Source: an uncultured Lachnospiraceae bacterium (GTDB lineage: Bacteria; Bacillota; Clostridia; Lachnospirales; Lachnospiraceae). Taken from it: a DNA stretch of 42,373 nt. Numbering within the stretch: the first letter of the stretch is position 1; every line of letters starts with the position of its first letter. This document shows, in pieces, positions 2,034-42,373 of this stretch. The notes below the pieces were generated by a model that made no database searches, was not told the origin of the DNA, and saw only the letters and a list, made by a program, of their open reading frames with translations. Where the stretch lies: contig CAMVCQ010000008.1 in the NCBI GenBank assembly GCA_947166015.1, positions 1-42,373 on the forward strand, written 5' to 3'. A program made the translations under genes and the position numbers.

Positions 2034-3959
2034 TCATCTGCCGGTTTGACTGCCCCTGTATTTCACACACACCATGGTGATGTCATCGGTCTGCTCATCA
2101 CCCGCTGTATAGGCGTCCACTTTTTCCAGCACACGTTCACAGATCAGTCGCGGGCACGAAAGGTCGTCCCCGGCTCTCTCCGTCCCGTCCGGCATCTGCT
2201 CCTTCAGGAAATCCGTCAGCACCTCCAGCAGGCGCTCCTCTCCGAACAGCTTTCCTCCCTCGGTCTCCGCCTCGGTCACTCCGTCAGTGTACAGATAGAT
2301 CATATCCTCCGGCGACAGCTGCATTTCTTCCTCAACATAGACGACATCGTCCAGCATCCCGAGAACCAGTCCGCAGCGCCGTTCTTCAAATCCCACCGCA
2401 TATCCGCAGTCCGAGGCCGGATCCCTGCGCATATACACAAAGGGGTTATGGCCGGCATTGGCCATGGTGAGCAGTCCCGTTTTTATGTTGAGATATCCGA
2501 TCCACGCCGTGATGAACATCTCTGCTTCATTCTCCGCACAAAGCTTGGCATTCACCCCGGCGAAAACCTCTCCCGGACGTATTCCCTGCTTCGCCTGTTC
2601 CTCGATCAGAGTCTTGGCTTCCATCATGAAGAGTGCCGCCGGGATTCCTTTTCCCGATACATCCGCAATCAGAAAAACAAGCGTATCCTCGTCAACCATA
2701 AACACATCGTAGAAATCCCCACCTACCTCCCGCGCGGTCCGGATAAAGGCGTGAGTCCGGAACCGATCTCTTTCCGGCAGCGATTTCGGCATGGAGGACA
2801 TCTGAATCCTTCGCGCGAAGGCCAGCTCCTCGTCGATCCTCGTCGCTTCCTTTTCGATCATGTTTTTCAGGGAATCCACGGTTTGGTTGATACCGTTTGC
2901 CAGAGTCTCCATTTCGACCGTATCAAAGATCGCAACCTTTTCCGTCAAGTCACCCTCCGTGATCCGGACGAGACTTCCGACTATACTTTGCAGCGAGCGC
3001 ATGATACGTCTCCGGAAAAACAAAACCGGCACAGCGATCATGACCACTGCCAGAATCACGACGCGGATAGCCTCAAACAATGCATTGTTCCACGTCGTCG
3101 ACCGGATTTCCTGCGACGGCATATAACCGATGATGAGAGAGTCTCCAACCAACTTGCCTGTCGCCCGGACAGACCTTCCGAGGAGAATGATCTTCTTCCA
3201 TGTGAAATCCTGCCTGTGGGCGTTATCATACTCCGGCCATAAGTCCACGAGCTTTTTCTTTGTAAACTCATTTTTATAGCTGTCTGCGATGACGCCATCC
3301 TTATCCACGATCATGAGGTGCCCGGACTCTCCCAATCGCCGATACCGGGTCTCCCCGATCAAAAGCGCACGGACTATATCCGCATACTCTTCAAATGGAA
3401 CCCCAAACCGTATAAACCCCTGCCCGCTTTTCAGCCATCGATCCGTATACTTGATCTGCAATCCCGGAGTTGCCATAGCCTCCCGAACTTCTTCATAATT
3501 AGTTCCGTTTTTCAGTTCATCGTGATTTTCTATCATCCACTTTGTTTCCGGCTCTTTGGAAAGATCCTTTCCGATAAAGCTCTCATCCAAAGCAGCCCGA
3601 ATGATACCCTTATTGTCAATCAAATAAAACTCATAACGAACATGGTTGTCTGTGAGCATTTTTCTAAATTCTTTCATGTCCTCATCCATGTCTTTTTCGT
3701 CGGACAAGTCATCATCATCAAAAAGAGAGCCTACGGTGGTTACCCATCCGTCGAGGTAGTCATTCACATAATCCTCCATATCGTGGCAGACGTCCTCCAC
3801 TCCGTTCCTTACTATATCCTGAAATTCTTTCACGGAACGCACATACGTCATAAAAGTAAAGATGACTCCCAGCAAAGCCACGGTAACGATAACAATTGTC
3901 GTAGCTCGTATCATCAACAAGATGAGACTTCTTTTTTTCTTTGGTTTATTCTCCTTCAT
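2034..3959 (-). CDS. Membrane sensor PP2C (SpoIIE-type) serine phosphatase
   Basis: A 641-residue protein: transmembrane helix at about 11-39, an extracellular sensor region of about 250 residues with a Cache-like pattern (two units, around 100-170 and 200-285), a second helix at about 293-315, a HAMP linker at about 316-368, a short coiled coil with the RIQMSSMP motif, then a PP2C/SpoIIE phosphatase domain from about 398. The metal-binding segments GGDFYDVF (413-420) and ADVSGKGIPAAL (432-443) are intact. Such proteins dephosphorylate STAS-domain anti-sigma antagonists. The start at 3959 overlaps the upstream STAS stop codon (ATGA), which argues for it over the ATG at 3998 and for translational coupling. 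The likely substrate is that STAS protein. No partner anti-sigma kinase is in the window. Confidence 0.9.
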   Translation of the reverse strand: MKENKPKKKRSLILLMIRATTIVIVTVALLGVIFTFMTYVRSVKEFQDIVRNGVEDVCHDMEDYVNDYLDGWVTTVGSLFDDDDLSDEKDMDEDMKEFRKMLTDNHVRYEFYLIDNKGIIRAALDESFIGKDLSKEPETKWMIENHDELKNGTNYEEVREAMATPGLQIKYTDRWLKSGQGFIRFGVPFEEYADIVRALLIGETRYRRLGESGHLMIVDKDGVIADSYKNEFTKKKLVDLWPEYDNAHRQDFTWKKIILLGRSVRATGKLVGDSLIIGYMPSQEIRSTTWNNALFEAIRVVILAVVMIAVPVLFFRRRIMRSLQSIVGSLVRITEGDLTEKVAIFDTVEMETLANGINQTVDSLKNMIEKEATRIDEELAFARRIQMSSMPKSLPERDRFRTHAFIRTAREVGGDFYDVFMVDEDTLVFLIADVSGKGIPAALFMMEAKTLIEEQAKQGIRPGEVFAGVNAKLCAENEAEMFITAWIGYLNIKTGLLTMANAGHNPFVYMRRDPASDCGYAVGFEERRCGLVLGMLDDVVYVEEEMQLSPEDMIYLYTDGVTEAETEGGKLFGEERLLEVLTDFLKEQMPDGTERAGDDLSCPRLICERVLEKVDAYTAGDEQTDDITMVCVKYRGSQTGR

Positions 3960-36303: not shown

Positions 36304-36310
36304 ATTTAGT

Positions 36311-36381
36311 AGCAGATGACGGGAATCGAACCCGCGTTTTCAGCTTGGGAAGCTGACATTCTACCATTGAACTACATCTGC
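36311..36381 (-). tRNA. tRNA-Gly, anticodon CCC
   Basis: A 71-base cloverleaf on the minus strand: acceptor GCAGATG/CATCTGC, anticodon stem TCAGC/GCTGA with loop TTCCCAA, T-arm GCGGGTTCGATTCCCGT. CCA is not encoded. The anticodon CCC reads GGG glycine codons. It lies 29 bases after the ANTAR gene, so processing from the car transcript is possible. Confidence 0.93.
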
Positions 36382-36410
36382 TTTCACGTGGTTTTTATTC
36401 ACAAGGAATT

Positions 36411-37004
36411 TTAACCCAATTTAGTATATTTGTCAAGTATTTCTTCAGCAATTTCTCGTCTTGTCACACACTTATCCATTGCAAGTTTTCCGATGTATTT
36501 GTGCGCTTCTTCTTCATCAAATCCTTTTTCATCAATAAGCTTCCATTTTGCGCGATTTACTATCCTTATTTCTTCCATTTTTTCTTCCAAAGTAAGGACT
36601 TTTTTTTGTGTACTTTTTAACCTGTCCAAAATAGCACACATAAGTCTTGCACTGCGGCTGACTGCCTTTACCGTTGCCGGTTTTGTTATGACTATTATTC
36701 CGAAATCAGTCACTTTCTCCGCAACATCCTCGCTTATCTCGGAGGACGCAGTAACTATGACTCCTGTGGTGTTTTGAGAAACTATATCCATAGCCAGCTC
36801 AACACCTGATTCATCCGACAAAGGGATATTGATCATCACAAGATCATAGCTTCTTTCGACTAATTCTCTTCTCGCTAAGGACGCACTTTTCCTAACCTCG
36901 ATATCACGGTATCTTCCGTCAGAAAGAGCCCGCACTACCGAAGCTGAGAATTTTTCATATGATGATACGACAAGCACGTCGTGCTGTTTGCTTGTTTTTG
37001 CCAT
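36411..37004 (-). CDS. ANTAR RNA-binding antiterminator with pseudo-receiver domain
   Basis: A 197-residue protein. The N-terminal half (about 8-125) has a receiver fold, but the phospho-acceptor position reads MINIPL (N59 instead of D) and the acidic pair is SS (14-15), while the lysine (ITKP, K108) is kept. It is therefore probably not controlled by phosphorylation. A coiled linker leads to an ANTAR domain (about 137-193, RAKWKLIDEKGFDEEEAH). ANTAR proteins bind paired RNA hairpins and prevent termination, often in nitrogen genes. It is encoded 12 bases after the glutamine synthetase homologue, an order also known from glnA-nitR in a Clostridium (from memory). The RNA target is not visible here. 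Confidence 0.87.
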   Translation of the reverse strand: MAKTSKQHDVLVVSSYEKFSASVVRALSDGRYRDIEVRKSASLARRELVERSYDLVMINIPLSDESGVELAMDIVSQNTTGVIVTASSEISEDVAEKVTDFGIIVITKPATVKAVSRSARLMCAILDRLKSTQKKVLTLEEKMEEIRIVNRAKWKLIDEKGFDEEEAHKYIGKLAMDKCVTRREIAEEILDKYTKLG

Positions 37005-37016
37005 CAGTCCCCCTGA

Positions 37017-38189
37017 TCAATCACAATAGCTTTTCAGTACCGCTTCCGGCACAACAGCTTTTACAAAATCGCTTTTCCCTGCAACCTCTTTTGCTTCCTT
37101 GATGGACTGTGGAAGCAGATGCTCATCACCGATTTCTGTTTTCGGTAACTCGAGTTTGTTTTTGATGCCGTTTAATCCGGCCTCTATCAAAAGAGAATAC
37201 GCAAGGTAAGGGTTGCTGAGTGCATCGGGCGAGCGAAGCTCGGTGCGTATCATACCTTTGTGCTCGTTGACGTGCATAAGGGCATTTGGGCACTCATCTG
37301 ACCAGTTGACCCTGTCAGGCGCTGTGTTTGTTCCAAATCTCCTGTATGAAGCCTCGGAAGGGTTCAAAAACAGTGTTATATCACGGATTTTGTCAAGTAT
37401 CCCGGCCGCCACGTATTTGCACACATCATTTCCGTTTTTGTCTGTTGCGTATATGTTGATATGATACCCGTTTCCCGGTTTTCCTTTGAGAGGTACAGGT
37501 GAAAAATCAGCATACAGACCGTTTCTGCCGGCGATAGTTCCTACCGCCATCAAAAATGTCGACATCTGATCCGCTGCCTTGAGTGGAGTGCCGTAATGAA
37601 AATCTATTTCATTTTGTCCCGGTCCCTCCTCATGGTGTGATCGCTCAGGCAACAGTCCCATCTCCTCAATTGTAAGACATATTTCCCGTCTGATATTTTC
37701 ACCTTTATCAGCAGGCGCTATATCCATATATCCCGCTTCATCGTAGGGAATATCGGTCCTGTTTCCCTCGTCATCAAGCTTGAAAAGATAGAACTCTGAC
37801 TTGGACCCGAATTTAAACTCTACCCCCTCTTCTTCAGCGTGTTTGACAGCGTTTTCAAGCATAACTCTTGTATCCGCCTCACAAAGCTCACCCCCGGCCG
37901 TATACACATCGCAAAACATCCTTACGACACGACCGCTCTCGGGACGCCATGGAAGAATTGTTATCGTGGACGCATCCGGCTTCAAATACAAAAGAGCACC
38001 ATCATTTCTCAGGAATCCGTCGATATGCCCGGCATTGATCGCAATCCCGTCTTCGAATGCTTTTTTAATTTCTTTTGGCATGATCGAAATGTTTTTTTGC
38101 ACTCCATGCGCATCGCGAAACATCAGACGGATGAATTTAACGTCCTCTTCCTCGATAAACTGTACTATTTCTTCTGCTGAATAATCCAT
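37017..38189 (-). CDS. Glutamine synthetase homologue with altered active site
   Basis: A 390-residue protein of the glutamine synthetase I fold (usual length about 440). Conserved parts are SHHEEGPGQNEIDF (E187, E194), GNGYHINIY (H243) and ELRSPD (E317, R319). Using Salmonella numbering from memory, several catalytic residues are changed: metal ligand E129 is K130 (GSKSEF), ammonia-site E327 is T289 (TNTAPD), R339 is P301 and R344 is H306 (ECPNALMHVN where active enzymes have NRSxLIRIP). The reading frame is clean across this stretch. The start at 38189 has GGAGGG six bases upstream. It lies between carB (29 bases) and the ANTAR gene (12 bases). It may be a sensor or act on another substrate. 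Confidence 0.85.
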   Translation of the reverse strand: MDYSAEEIVQFIEEEDVKFIRLMFRDAHGVQKNISIMPKEIKKAFEDGIAINAGHIDGFLRNDGALLYLKPDASTITILPWRPESGRVVRMFCDVYTAGGELCEADTRVMLENAVKHAEEEGVEFKFGSKSEFYLFKLDDEGNRTDIPYDEAGYMDIAPADKGENIRREICLTIEEMGLLPERSHHEEGPGQNEIDFHYGTPLKAADQMSTFLMAVGTIAGRNGLYADFSPVPLKGKPGNGYHINIYATDKNGNDVCKYVAAGILDKIRDITLFLNPSEASYRRFGTNTAPDRVNWSDECPNALMHVNEHKGMIRTELRSPDALSNPYLAYSLLIEAGLNGIKNKLELPKTEIGDEHLLPQSIKEAKEVAGKSDFVKAVVPEAVLKSYCD

Positions 38190-38218: not shown

Positions 38219-41200
38219 TCAATGCATTTTTAGTGCCATGATACTTGGAGATATTTCCTCAAGCACATCAAGCAGTATCCTGACCGTATCAAGCGAAGTA
38301 AACATAGTCACTCCGTTTGAAACAGCACACTGTCTGATCGCGACACCGTCCTCATAGTGAATTCCGGACAGGATCGCCCTTGTATTTATAATGTAGCTTA
38401 CATAACCGGCGCGGATCGATCTGAGTATCTCATCAGAGCCCTCCGAAAGCTTTCCGCGCATCCTGGTCCTGATGCCATGTTCTTTCAAAAATGTCGCGGT
38501 TCCCGGAGTCGCCTCGATATTGAATCCCAATTGATAAAACCTTCTCACAAGAGGAAGCGCCTCCTCTTTGTCCTCGTCAGCAAGTGTAACAACTACCGTT
38601 CCGTACTCCTTCATTTTGATTCCGGACGCCTGCAATGCTTTGTAGAAGGCACGGTTTAGTTTTTTGTCATATCCGATCGCTTCACCCGTAGACTTCATTT
38701 CAGGAGAAAGATATGCATCCATACCGTTTAATTTTTCAAATGAAAAAGCAGGTGCCTTGACAAAATACATCTCTTTTTCCGTTGGCGTAAGGTCTGTGAT
38801 CCCCTGTTGTTTAAGCGATACACCAAGCATAACCTTTGTCGCTATATCTACCAGCTGAAAGCCCGATGATTTCGACAAAAACGGCACGCTTCTCGATGCT
38901 CTCGGGTTGACCTCTATAATATAAACGCTTTCATCTTTGTCTACTATAAACTGAATATTAAACAGTCCTTTGATACCTATTCCAAGTCCGATTTTTCTGG
39001 TGTATTCCGTGATGGTATTTTTGACTTTATCAGAAATACTAAACGGCGGATAAACGCTTGTTGAATCTCCGGAGTGGACACCCGTACGCTCCACAAGCTC
39101 CATTATTCCCGGCAAAAATACATCCTCGCCGTCACATACGGCATCTATTTCCACTTCTTTTCCAACGATATACCTGTCGACCAATATTGGACGGATGGCG
39201 GTCTTTTCTCCGTTTTCAGCTGTGTTATCAGCTTGCGTAGCACCATTGGTCGCCCTTTTGTTTTCGTTATTTCCTTCGTCCGCCTCAACCGCATTTTTCA
39301 GATAATGCCTGAGCATATCCTCGTTTGCGACTATCTCCATCGCCCTTCCACCGAGCACAAAGCTTGGTCGCACCAAAACAGGATAACCTATCTCATTCGC
39401 AGCCTTCACGCCACTCTCGATATCCGTCACCGCCACACCGGTTGGGTGCGGTATCTGAAGCCTTGCTATAACCTCTTCGAATTTATCTCTGTCCTCGGCT
39501 TTGTCTATTGCCTCGCTGTCCGTCCCTATTATCTTCACTCCTCTTTTGGTAAGTGGTTCCGCAAGGTTTACCGCCGTCTGTCCTCCGAGGGATGCTATAA
39601 CTCCTATTGGGTTTTCAAGCTCAATGATATTCATGATATCCTCAACCGTCAGAGGCTCGAAATACAGCTTGTCCGCCGTAGTATAGTCAGTCGATACCGT
39701 CTCGGGGTTATTATTTACGACGATAGCTTCGTAGCCCATCTCGTGGATCGTTCTGATAGCGTGTACCGTCGAGTAGTCAAACTCAACTCCCTGACCGATC
39801 CTGATCGGTCCCGAACCGAGCACTATTACCTTTTGTTTGTCCGATACTATTGACTCATTTTCCTCTTCATAAGTAGAGTAAAAATAAGGAACATAACTGT
39901 CAAACTCGCTGGCACATGTATCGATCATTTTGTACACCGGCCAGATGTTGTATTTTTTTCTCAGCTCCCAAACTTCGTTTTCCGTTACACCCGTAAGTTC
40001 GGCGATATATGAATCCGAAAAGCCGGTTCTTTTTGCTTCATAAAGCAGTTCTTTTGTGATTGTTTGTCCTTCTATCTTTTTCTCAAAATCAACTATATTT
40101 TTTATCTTGTCAAGGAAGAACATATCGATCATTGTTTCTTTAAAAATAACAGACTTGTCAACACCTATCCACATAAGCTGTGCTATGGCGTAGAGTCTGT
40201 CATCTGTTCCTTCTTTTATGTACTCGATAAGCTCTTCGGTTGACATGTTTTCACGGTCAAACTTCTCCAGATGAATGTGGTTTTTTCCATCCTCAAGTGA
40301 CCTTATCGCCTTCAAAAGGCTTTCCTCCATAGTCCTTCCAACACTCATAACCTCTCCGGTCGCTTTCATCTGAGTTGAAAGAGTGTTAGACGCCGTAGTA
40401 AATTTATCAAACGGGAAGCGGGGCATTTTTGTAACTACATAGTCAAGTGCAGGCTCAAAGCACGCCGGTGTGTTTGCAAGCTGTATCTCGTCAAGTGTCA
40501 TCCCGACAGCTATTTTTGCGGAAACTCTGGCTATCGGGTAACCGCTTGCCTTGGATGCAAGTGCCGATGATCTCGACACTCTGGGGTTGACCTCAATTAC
40601 GAAATAATCAAACGAGAGCGGATCAAGTGCAAACTGGACATTGCAGCCGCCCTCGACGCCGAGCGCACGGATTATTTTTAATGCGCTGTCTCGAAGCATA
40701 TGATACTCTTTGTTTGTAAGTGTCTGGCTCGGAGCCACAACTATAGAATCTCCCGTGTGGATACCGACGGGATCAAGGTTTTCCATGTTGCAGACTACGA
40801 GCGCAGTGTCATTTGAATCGCGCATCACCTCGTACTCGATTTCTTTGTACCCGCGGATACTTTTTTCAACCAGAACCTGATGCACAGGCGAGCACTCAAG
40901 TGCGTGCTCAATTTTTGTGACAAGCTCCTCTTCATCATATGCAAATCCTCCACCGGTTCCGCCGAGCGTAAACGCAGGTCGCAGGATAACAGGATATCCT
41001 ATCTCTTTTGCCGCCTCGATACCCTCTTCCACGGAATAAGTGATCTTTGAAGGTATCACAGGCTCTCCTATTTTTTCACAGAGCTCTTTGAAAAGCTCCC
41101 TGTCCTCAGCCAGTCGGATGCTTTCCTTGTCAGTCCCCAAAAGCTCTATCTCGCACTCGTCAAAGACGCCTTTGTCACTGAGCTGCAGCGCAAGGTTCAG

Positions 41201-41485
41201 TCCCGTCTGACCGCCTATGCCCGGAACAATAGCGTCAGGCCTTTCGTAGCGGCAGATCCTCGCCATATACTCAAGTGTGAGCGGCTCCATATACACGCTA
41301 TCGGCGATCGATGTATCTGTCATAATAGTAGCGGGATTTGAGTTTGCAAGTACGACCTCGTAACCTTCCTCTTTGAGTGCTAAGCAAGCCTGCGTACCGG
41401 CGTAATCAAACTCCGCCGCCTGACCAATCACTATCGGCCCCGAGCCTATCACAAGAACTTTTTTTATATCTGTTCGTTTTGCCAT
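38219..41485 (-). CDS. carB: Carbamoyl-phosphate synthase large subunit
   Basis: A 1088-residue CarB, which makes carbamoyl phosphate from bicarbonate, ATP and the ammonia delivered by CarA, for pyrimidines and arginine. Both ATP-grasp halves are present ([19 protein letters not shown] at the start and [18 protein letters not shown] in the second half), plus the C-terminal MGS-like allosteric domain (about the last 140 residues). An unusual polar insertion of about 28 residues, with DEGNNENKR and [12 protein letters not shown], lies at about 734-762 in the second ATP-grasp domain (39201-39285). Start: GAGG nine bases before ATG. It is in one operon with carA and the genes below. Confidence 0.96.
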
Positions 41486-41540: not shown

Positions 41541-41571
41541 AGGAAACACTGATCCTGTCAGCATTTCCTTA
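41541..41571 (-). other. Hairpin overlapping the carA stop codon
   Basis: On the minus strand AAGGAAA and TTTCCTT pair (7 bp) around an inner CTGA/TCAG stem with loop CAGGA. The stem starts within the carA stop codon. The following run TTTCCTTAATTTT is a weak T-tract, so it may be a weak attenuator or a processing site adjusting carB relative to carA. Confidence 0.5.
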
Positions 41572-42373
41572 AGCATTCTTGGTTTTTTCCATATTGTTTA
41601 TGAATTCTTCGAATAAATAAAAACTATCCTGAGGTCCCGGTGCACTCTCCGGATGATACTGCACGGAGCACACCTTGTCAGCTTTTCCGACAAGTCCCTC
41701 AATTGTATTGTCAAGAAGATTTACATTCGAGACATCAAGTCCTGTCCCTGCAAGCGAATCCTCGTCTACTGCATAGCTGTGATTCTGCGACGTGATCTCT
41801 ATTTTTCCTGTCAATAGATTTTTAACAGGATGATTGCCTCCGCGATGTCCGAATTTCAGCTTGTATGTTTTGGCTCCATACGAAAGAGCGATCAGCTGAT
41901 GTCCGAGACAAATACCAAAAATTGGCATCTTGCCTTTGATCTCTTTCAGCACATCGATAACAGGCTTGACATCCTCGGGATCTCCCGGTCCGTTGGAAAC
42001 AAATACCCCGTCAGGGTTTAGTGCCAATATCTCCTCAGCCGGCGTGTCATACGGAACAACCGTGACATTGCAGCCACATTTATTCAGGCTTCTGACTATA
42101 TTCAGCTTCATACCGCAATCAATAGCTACCACGGTAAACCTCGGATTTGCCGTCCTCGCGTACCATCTTTTTTTGCAACTGACTCTTGATACCGCATCAT
42201 GAGGGATGGGTGTTTCGTGTATACGCTGAACCCCCTCCCAGGTTGTGACATCAGTGTCTGTGATAATAGCCCTTCTCGATCCGATATCGCGGATGCTCCT
42301 GACAAGCTTCCTGGTATCTATTCCGCTGATACCCGGAACCGCTGCCTCCTCAAGTAGCTCAGACAGCGTTTTT
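41569..42373 (-). CDS. carA: Carbamoyl-phosphate synthase small subunit (5' end outside window)
   Basis: The frame stays open from the TAA at 41569-41571 to the window edge, about 267 residues. Landmarks are PGISGIDTRKL near the window edge, IDCGMKLNIVRSL, and the class I glutamine amidotransferase triad: nucleophile C in FGICLGHQ, then HPE in VQYHPESAPGP. CarA hydrolyses glutamine to feed ammonia to CarB. Its start and any regulatory leader (UTP- or PyrR-controlled, or an ANTAR target) lie outside the window. Confidence 0.95.
   Translation of the reverse strand, partial: KTLSELLEEAAVPGISGIDTRKLVRSIRDIGSRRAIITDTDVTTWEGVQRIHETPIPHDAVSRVSCKKRWYARTANPRFTVVAIDCGMKLNIVRSLNKCGCNVTVVPYDTPAEEILALNPDGVFVSNGPGDPEDVKPVIDVLKEIKGKMPIFGICLGHQLIALSYGAKTYKLKFGHRGGNHPVKNLLTGKIEITSQNHSYAVDEDSLAGTGLDVSNVNLLDNTIEGLVGKADKVCSVQYHPESAPGPQDSFYLFEEFINNMEKTKNA

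Follow-up and report, generated by a model that had tools for sequence, protein, structure and literature searches.

A glutamine synthetase (GS) homologue with an altered active site, encoded just ahead of an ANTAR antiterminator in an uncultured Lachnospiraceae bacterium, raises the question of what a synthetase-like protein might do beside an RNA-binding regulator. The window, i.e., the whole stretch of DNA that was analysed (42,373 nucleotides), is an entire contig (C8) of a 2.10 Mb genome in 130 contigs that is 98.5% complete. The gene order on the minus strand is carA, carB, GS homologue, ANTAR gene, and tRNA-Gly (Table 1); open reading frame (ORF) coordinates confirm the 12-base distance between GS homologue and ANTAR gene given in the earlier note, and the two genes presumably form one transcription unit. 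The true start of carA and its leader may sit farther upstream or past the contig end (42373).

Table 1. Features of the carAB-GS-ANTAR region (positions in the window)
Feature	Position	Strand	Basis
carA, glutamine amidotransferase subunit	41569..42132	(-)	Name from own sequence
carB, upstream gene in the GS-ANTAR run	38219..41485	(-)	Name from own sequence
Pseudo-glutamine-synthetase (GS homologue), 390 aa	37017..38189	(-)	ORF, Pfam, NCBIfam, alignment, AlphaFold model
12-nt spacer, GS stop to ANTAR start	37005..37016	(-)	ORF coordinates
NitR-type ANTAR antiterminator, 197 aa; pseudo-receiver, long helix, ANTAR domain	36411..37004	(-)	ORF, Pfam, PDB matches
tRNA-Gly (ccc), directly after ANTAR gene; next minus-strand feature	36309..36382	(-)	

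The upstream protein has the GS fold, with beta-grasp and catalytic domains, as seen both from Pfam (Gln-synt_C, PF00120, 203.5 bits, together with Gln-synt_N, PF03951) and from an AlphaFold model (mean pLDDT 87.7, poor at 152-163), for which all 50 PDB entries listed as fold matches are GS (TMq 0.87-0.92). A PDB sequence search returned 36 distinct GS sequences at E <= 0.001, with Bacillus subtilis GS among the best, and the NCBIfam equivalog for type I GS (GlnA) scores 251.3 bits, far under its cut-off of 429.15. In the alignment to B. subtilis GS, the four odd residues pointed out in the earlier note are borne out: K130, T289, P301, and H306 stand in the places of E132, E304, R316, and R321 (which we take to be E129, E327, R339, and R344 in Salmonella numbering), so that all four of these catalytic residues are replaced, and none of them is restored elsewhere in that alignment. 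The remaining metal ligands (E132, E187, E194, H243, and E317 in window numbering) are retained, as are R284 and R319.

To see how far these changes extend, we aligned 119 GS sequences chosen from loci of public genomes and built a tree of 118 of them plus B. subtilis GS (one, L051, was left out for gaps) by a quick method with SH-aLRT support and a midpoint root; 38 of its 115 inner branches have support below 80, and residues were counted by tree clade. The window protein falls in a clade of 50 sequences (support 100; related, not independent) in which the E304 position is never Glu (T 37, M 5, L 3, N 2, S 2, A 1), suggesting that its loss is more than chance. The R321 position is likewise never Arg (Y 23, H 18, F 6, C 2, T 1), that of R316 is Arg in 3/50 and many different residues otherwise, and that of E132 is E in 42, K in 7, and M in 1. 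All 50 sequences keep E134, E189, E196, H245, R298, E333, and R335 (B. subtilis numbering). Given that phosphoryl transfer and ammonium capture are roles of GS active-site residues, the pattern of kept and lost residues implies that a metal and an amino acid might still bind at the site, which lacks the pieces for those two steps. In one member of the family (L066 5001-6254; G007 C13), additional sequence close to residue 250 splits the pseudo-GS alignment in two, within an open frame.

A neighbouring group of 35 sequences (support 88) has K, R, or N at E304 and keeps R316 and R321; E304 is thus lost in all 85 sequences of the two groups. Two sequences with an active site intact by the residues checked (L014 and L016) lie at the unresolved base on this side of the tree. 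On the other side, a supported fork (100) holds seven canonical sequences and a clade of 19 (support 100) from 18 genomes of the window's genus, where the losses are of another kind: the ligands E189, E196, H245, and E333 are gone (E189S/A, E196H/C/Q, H245F/M/I/S, and E333V/I/A) and E304 is N in 19/19, while R298, R316, and R321 are retained in 19/19. The sequences devoid of metal ligands include L027-L032, L039, L043, L045-L047, L049, L050, L052, L054, L058-L060, and L062, and the gene adjoins an ANTAR match in 18/18 genomes. Because intact enzymes stand on both sides, two separate losses are a simpler account than one loss followed by several restorations, and the tree suggests that a dead GS beside an ANTAR gene arose in two separate lineages. 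Two genomes of the same genus carry a third form of GS, also next to an ANTAR gene (L024 in G027 and L025 in G020); it lies on long branches, with R316 and R321 changed and the metal ligands kept.

Could the GS homologue still be a ligase, with altered chemistry or substrate (e.g., gamma-glutamylation of another amine), and with a neighbour that regulates it in the ordinary way? The fold is modelled well, and the n1 metal ligands and the H243, E317, R284, and R319 positions are kept in 50/50 sequences of the window clade; set against this are the changes at the E304, R316, and R321 positions (50/50, 47/50, and 50/50), the separate lineage that has the same neighbour without the metal ligands, and a C-terminal region that is shorter than in canonical GS. 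The window protein continues for 39 residues past the aligned segment, compared with 77 in each of four canonical sequences and 51-53 in three of the neighbouring group; this region of GS is, we assume, a dodecamer contact. We consider an altered ligase unlikely and are highly confident that the homologue has no GS activity.

A pseudoenzyme might also be a mere remnant, decaying while the ANTAR protein alone matters. The catalytic residues are indeed gone, and clostridia are known to have ANTAR proteins that regulate nitrogen assimilation (PMC6316151; PMC4676874), but the open frames are full-length, the loss of E304 spans two neighbouring groups, and the GS gene family is under purifying selection rather than decaying. 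In the four pairs of relatives with measurable dS, dN/dS of the GS gene is 0.036-0.052 (L009-L010, 0.031/0.871; L086-L087, 0.035/0.951; L071-L068, 0.036/0.976; L091-L092, 0.064/1.228), similar to the ANTAR gene in the matching pairs (0.046/0.545, 0.038/0.515, 0.044/1.145, and 0.086/1.629, in the same order). GS ratios are higher in two near-identical pairs with very few changes (0.002/0.012 and 0.003/0.027), and dS of the GS gene is saturated in the other two pairs of relatives and between the window and six relatives (e.g., against L005, pN 0.098 and pS 0.779). That the homologue is a simple remnant is very improbable.

The downstream protein is an ANTAR-domain protein (PF03861, 57.2 bits over a threshold of 27.3) that also matches Response_reg. 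A PDB sequence search finds Rv1626, EutV, and, weakly, AmiR, and the AlphaFold model (mean pLDDT 91.2) matches the fold of EutV bound to RNA (TMq 0.80) and that of AmiR (1qo0; TMq 0.60-0.69). The receiver has N in place of D at position 59 and SS in place of the acidic pair, i.e., neither feature of a phosphorylated response regulator, which confirms the claim that it has no phospho-aspartate. Across the ANTAR proteins of the two groups to which the window's GS form belongs, position 59 is N in 46/50 and 32/33 (the exceptions being two D, in L085 and L100, one Q, one S, and one H); the Asp is therefore absent in 81/83, and the acidic pair is found in 0/83. Position 59 is G in 20/22 and T in 2/22 window-genus proteins paired with other GS forms, and D in 2/10 GS-paired ANTAR proteins from other orders. 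All three ANTAR proteins that do not adjoin a GS gene (L034, L035, and L042, from other genomes) retain DD or ED, D, and K. Alignment and receiver residues together thus uphold the pairing of a GS homologue that lacks catalytic residues with a non-phosphorylatable ANTAR protein on which the earlier note had been built.

The pairing itself is conserved. An ANTAR gene directly follows the GS homologue in 77/80 loci from public genomes (the best 80 of 152); in two of the other three, the sequence stops 109 (L084) and 170 nt (L141) after the GS frame, and in the third (L136) none is present. This last locus carries a GS homologue of a related group (2268-3479) with no ANTAR gene behind it. Among cultured relatives, Butyrivibrio sp. 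NC2007 (L087) has the same kind of locus as the window. In a set of 61 genomes, a type I GS-like match is found within 1.5 kb of the ANTAR match in 45/49 cases; both genes occur in 46 genomes, an ANTAR match never occurs without a GS-like one, two genomes have only the GS-like match (G050 and G032, the gene in G032 running into the contig end at 4940), and 13 have neither. In Monoglobus pectinilyticus, a protein with 47% identity, annotated as a 'glutamine synthetase family protein', comes before an 'ANTAR domain-containing protein'; the pair of this species (L239, NZ_OY725743.1) is on a record labelled as a 175,868-bp plasmid. The upstream neighbours vary (n = 70 of 74 ORFs, four on the opposite strand being left out): a GXGXG motif, presumably that found in glutamate synthase, in 29, carbamoyl phosphate synthetase in 16, CTP synthase in 12, pyridine nucleotide oxidoreductase in 6, and aminotransferase in 5. 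A GS-ANTAR fusion, which would match both proteins, is absent among 3,312 ORFs, and contact between the two therefore gains no support from that side.

The earlier note had proposed control either of carAB or of distant leaders, and had called for a search for ANTAR hairpins in nitrogen-gene leaders. When the amtB leaders of seven genomes with a window-type gene are aligned, a strongly conserved block is seen directly behind a TTGACA promoter; it contains a hairpin resembling GAGGC(AAGGGC)GTCTC, the 3' arm of which doubles as the 5' arm of an intrinsic terminator. When 1,236,692 bases of loci were scanned for such hairpin-terminator overlaps, there were 68 hits, of which 64 were different, versus none in one dinucleotide shuffle; the hexaloop letters of the scan had been picked after a first look at the results. 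A covariance model was then built on 37 of 47 sites, in which the short hairpin pairs in 96.2% of cells and the terminator in 96.0%, with two-sided changes in 25 and 101 cells; the sites were preselected for pairing, so that the percentages are no evidence and the covariation is evidence only in part.

In the window's own genome (150 of 594 candidates scored), the model finds the leaders of glnN (47.8 bits; one of the 37 seeds), asnB (44.2 bits), and amtB (42.9 bits), the latter two not being seeds; a fourth hit (28.3 bits) is the glnN site read on the opposite strand. All three leaders have an A1..G4 hexaloop hairpin overlapping a terminator and are predicted targets. Folding of the glnN leader gives a terminator of -32.9 kcal/mol, and its early 5' part folds as the hairpin (-7.0 kcal/mol). 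The claim about distant nitrogen leaders is thus supported as a prediction. Control of carAB is not supported: there is no leader motif in the window, the window's own operon included (best score 13 bits, E 0.62), although the carA leader could lie beyond the contig end.

The motif recurs in relatives. It is present at E < 1e-6 in 10/10 genomes with a window-type gene (seeds came from three, G000, G010, and G016), and among 30 amtB loci (L174-L203), all 22 from the window's genus match on the amtB strand at E <= 0.1, with seeds or seed copies at L181, L182, L183, L187, L188, L189, and L197. The eight amtB loci from other orders match only in L179 (a seed) and, weakly, in L180, and the loop starts with G in 7/15 leaders of the genus with other GS forms. 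Over the 61 genomes, under strict filters, the motif (E <= 0.01) is found in 29/46 with an ANTAR match and 3/15 without (Fisher p 0.006), leaving 17/46 ANTAR-bearing genomes with no motif at that threshold; as for the three ANTAR-less genomes, the GS-like gene is a contig-end fragment in G032 and G035, and the motif match is weak in G052.

Among 82 of 83 ORFs downstream of the motif (one second frame, at L142, was left out), Pfam identifies ammonium transporter in 28, type III GS (GSIII) in 23, CTP synthase in 10, asparagine synthase in 4, glutamate dehydrogenase in 3, a RelA/SpoT region in 2, and SAICAR synthetase in 1, counts that are not to be read as frequencies since loci with amtB and loci from around the pair are over-represented in the set. 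Relatives thereby add pyrG and gdhA to the predicted targets; some downstream ORFs are unrelated to nitrogen (e.g., a chemotaxis protein and GidB). In 10 loci, an operon whose last genes are those of the pseudo-GS and the ANTAR protein has the motif ahead of it, with CTP synthase behind the motif in nine and aminotransferase in one; this suggests feedback. In two genomes, it precedes a gene with a RelA/SpoT region (L208 456-1442 and L213 1562-2548), a position that would tie nitrogen status to alarmone synthesis. We regard antitermination at the predicted leaders as highly probable.

How many hairpins does such a leader have? A two-hairpin model was dropped: when the glnN locus L002 and the amtB loci L174-L203 were scanned under strict criteria for a pair of A..G.. 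hairpins, the one hit was in L174, and the single hairpin of the seven aligned amtB leaders was adopted instead. A promoter-like pair is found upstream of 73 of 89 sites (some of which are the same place in two loci), and the hairpin arm starts 10-11 nt past the -10 element in 45 of these 73, leaving little room for a further hairpin, and 19-39 nt past it in 10. A second A..G.. hairpin (at least 3 bp, no more than 40 nt upstream) is seen in 10/73 versus 13/73 in one shuffle, so that a dual target is not apparent. Where the earlier note had suggested looking for paired ANTAR hairpins, the leaders found here mostly show one; neither such single-hairpin leaders nor the second lineage of dead GS figured in that note. 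Tandem antiterminator-terminator modules within one leader are seen at L197 2762-2864, L114 1256-1363, L068 1173-1305, L067 530-667, and L069 2766-2901.

As in EutV-type leaders, which are described as having a hexaloop with A1 and G4 on a stem that excludes the terminator (PMC3369931), the window-type leaders combine an A1/G4 hexaloop with a stem that overlaps the terminator; unlike them, they mostly have one hairpin. For EutV, two hairpins are reported to be needed in vivo (PMC3369931; PMC8934654), and an RNA-bound structure has led to the minimal ANTAR target being redefined as a single hexaloop (PMC8934654). The sites found here would provide many candidate natural single-hexaloop ANTAR targets, versus the dual hairpins of the published descriptions cited.

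The nature of the predicted targets bears on another possibility, namely that the pseudo-GS is no sensor and forms mixed oligomers with, or otherwise modulates, an active type III GS, the ANTAR protein being under another partner such as the P-II domain of AmtB. GSIII and AmtB are indeed predicted targets, and P-II domains are matched in 11/82 downstream ORFs. The genome has two PF00120 matches, the window GS homologue and one GSIII (a 735-aa frame); the second synthetase whose absence would have counted against a sensor role, according to the earlier note, does exist, as a type III rather than a type I enzyme. However, it is the pseudo-GS gene that adjoins the ANTAR gene in nearly all loci while the upstream genes vary, and the 3/3 ANTAR proteins with no GS neighbour keep their phosphorylation residues. 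We find this possibility improbable, and a partnership between the pseudo-GS and the ANTAR protein quite likely.

Taken with the catalytic loss, the purifying selection, the conserved pairing, the pseudo-receiver, and the three leader motifs, the presence of a single ANTAR match in the genome leads us to propose that the dead GS is the glutamine-responsive partner of a NitR-type antiterminator, by analogy with AmiC and AmiR (probability roughly 0.65). The pseudo-GS would act as a receptor for nitrogen, probably glutamine, for the adjacent ANTAR protein, which would not be switchable through phosphorylation at the usual aspartate. Free ANTAR protein would bind the single AxxG hexaloop hairpin at the extreme 5' end of the glnN, asnB, and amtB transcripts and so prevent formation of the overlapping intrinsic terminator, allowing transcription to go on; when glutamine is plentiful, ligand-bound pseudo-GS would sequester or inactivate the ANTAR protein, and the leaders would terminate. 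Glutamine is suggested as the ligand because the predicted regulon makes or consumes it and because GS binds regulators in Bacillales. Its binding is not assured, since in the window clade R61 (the equivalent of B. subtilis R62, presumably a feedback-inhibition residue) is not conserved and 49/50 sequences have P at the N240 position, and we put glutamine as the ligand, together with this direction of the switch, at even odds.

NitR-type regulators as such are already known. NitR of Clostridium saccharobutylicum is an ANTAR antiterminator reported to induce GS/GOGAT genes upon nitrogen limitation (PMC6316151), and the C. thermocellum ANTAR gene Clo1313_2030 clusters with GOGAT genes (PMC4676874). 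The window ANTAR protein resembles NitR to the extent of its location (beside a glnA-like gene) and its predicted nitrogen targets, and differs in that its GS neighbour has no catalytic residues and that the pair follows carAB. The gene nitR itself, we assume, adjoins glnA.

In AmiC-AmiR and NasS-NasT, the latter described as dissociating when nitrate or nitrite is sensed, the ANTAR protein is likewise under a ligand-binding partner and not under phosphorylation, and AmiR is a weak sequence match, and also a fold match, to the window ANTAR protein. AmiC and NasS are periplasmic-binding-protein-like receptors, whereas the window's partner has the GS fold. The fold matches of the GS model include the GS-TnrA and GS-GlnR structures 4s0r, 7tfa, 7tf9, and 7tf6, from Bacillales, where GS binds a nitrogen regulator; GS is an active enzyme there and the regulators bind DNA, in contrast to the window's GS, which lacks catalytic residues, and its regulator, which is of the RNA-binding type. 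In the open-access literature searched, we came across no account of a dead GS serving as partner to an ANTAR protein; the dead-enzyme partner and the single-hairpin leaders are what is new here.

The regulation of ammonium assimilation involving NitR has been called not fully understood (PMC6316151). A more general proposal, to which we give about equal weight for and against, is that on two or more occasions in Clostridia of the gut and rumen, a GS paired with an ANTAR protein lost catalysis and turned into a dedicated receptor for a metabolite, controlling a glutamine regulon (glnN, amtB, asnB, pyrG, gdhA, and others) via single-hexaloop antiterminators at the 5' end. A catalysis-less GS neighbour kept by purifying selection in two lineages would mean that sensing has been split from enzyme activity, and the occurrence of two dead lineages, each next to an ANTAR regulator, suggests that it is the GS fold that does the sensing. 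If this is true, the intact GS-ANTAR pairs would be ancestral bifunctional enzyme-sensors.
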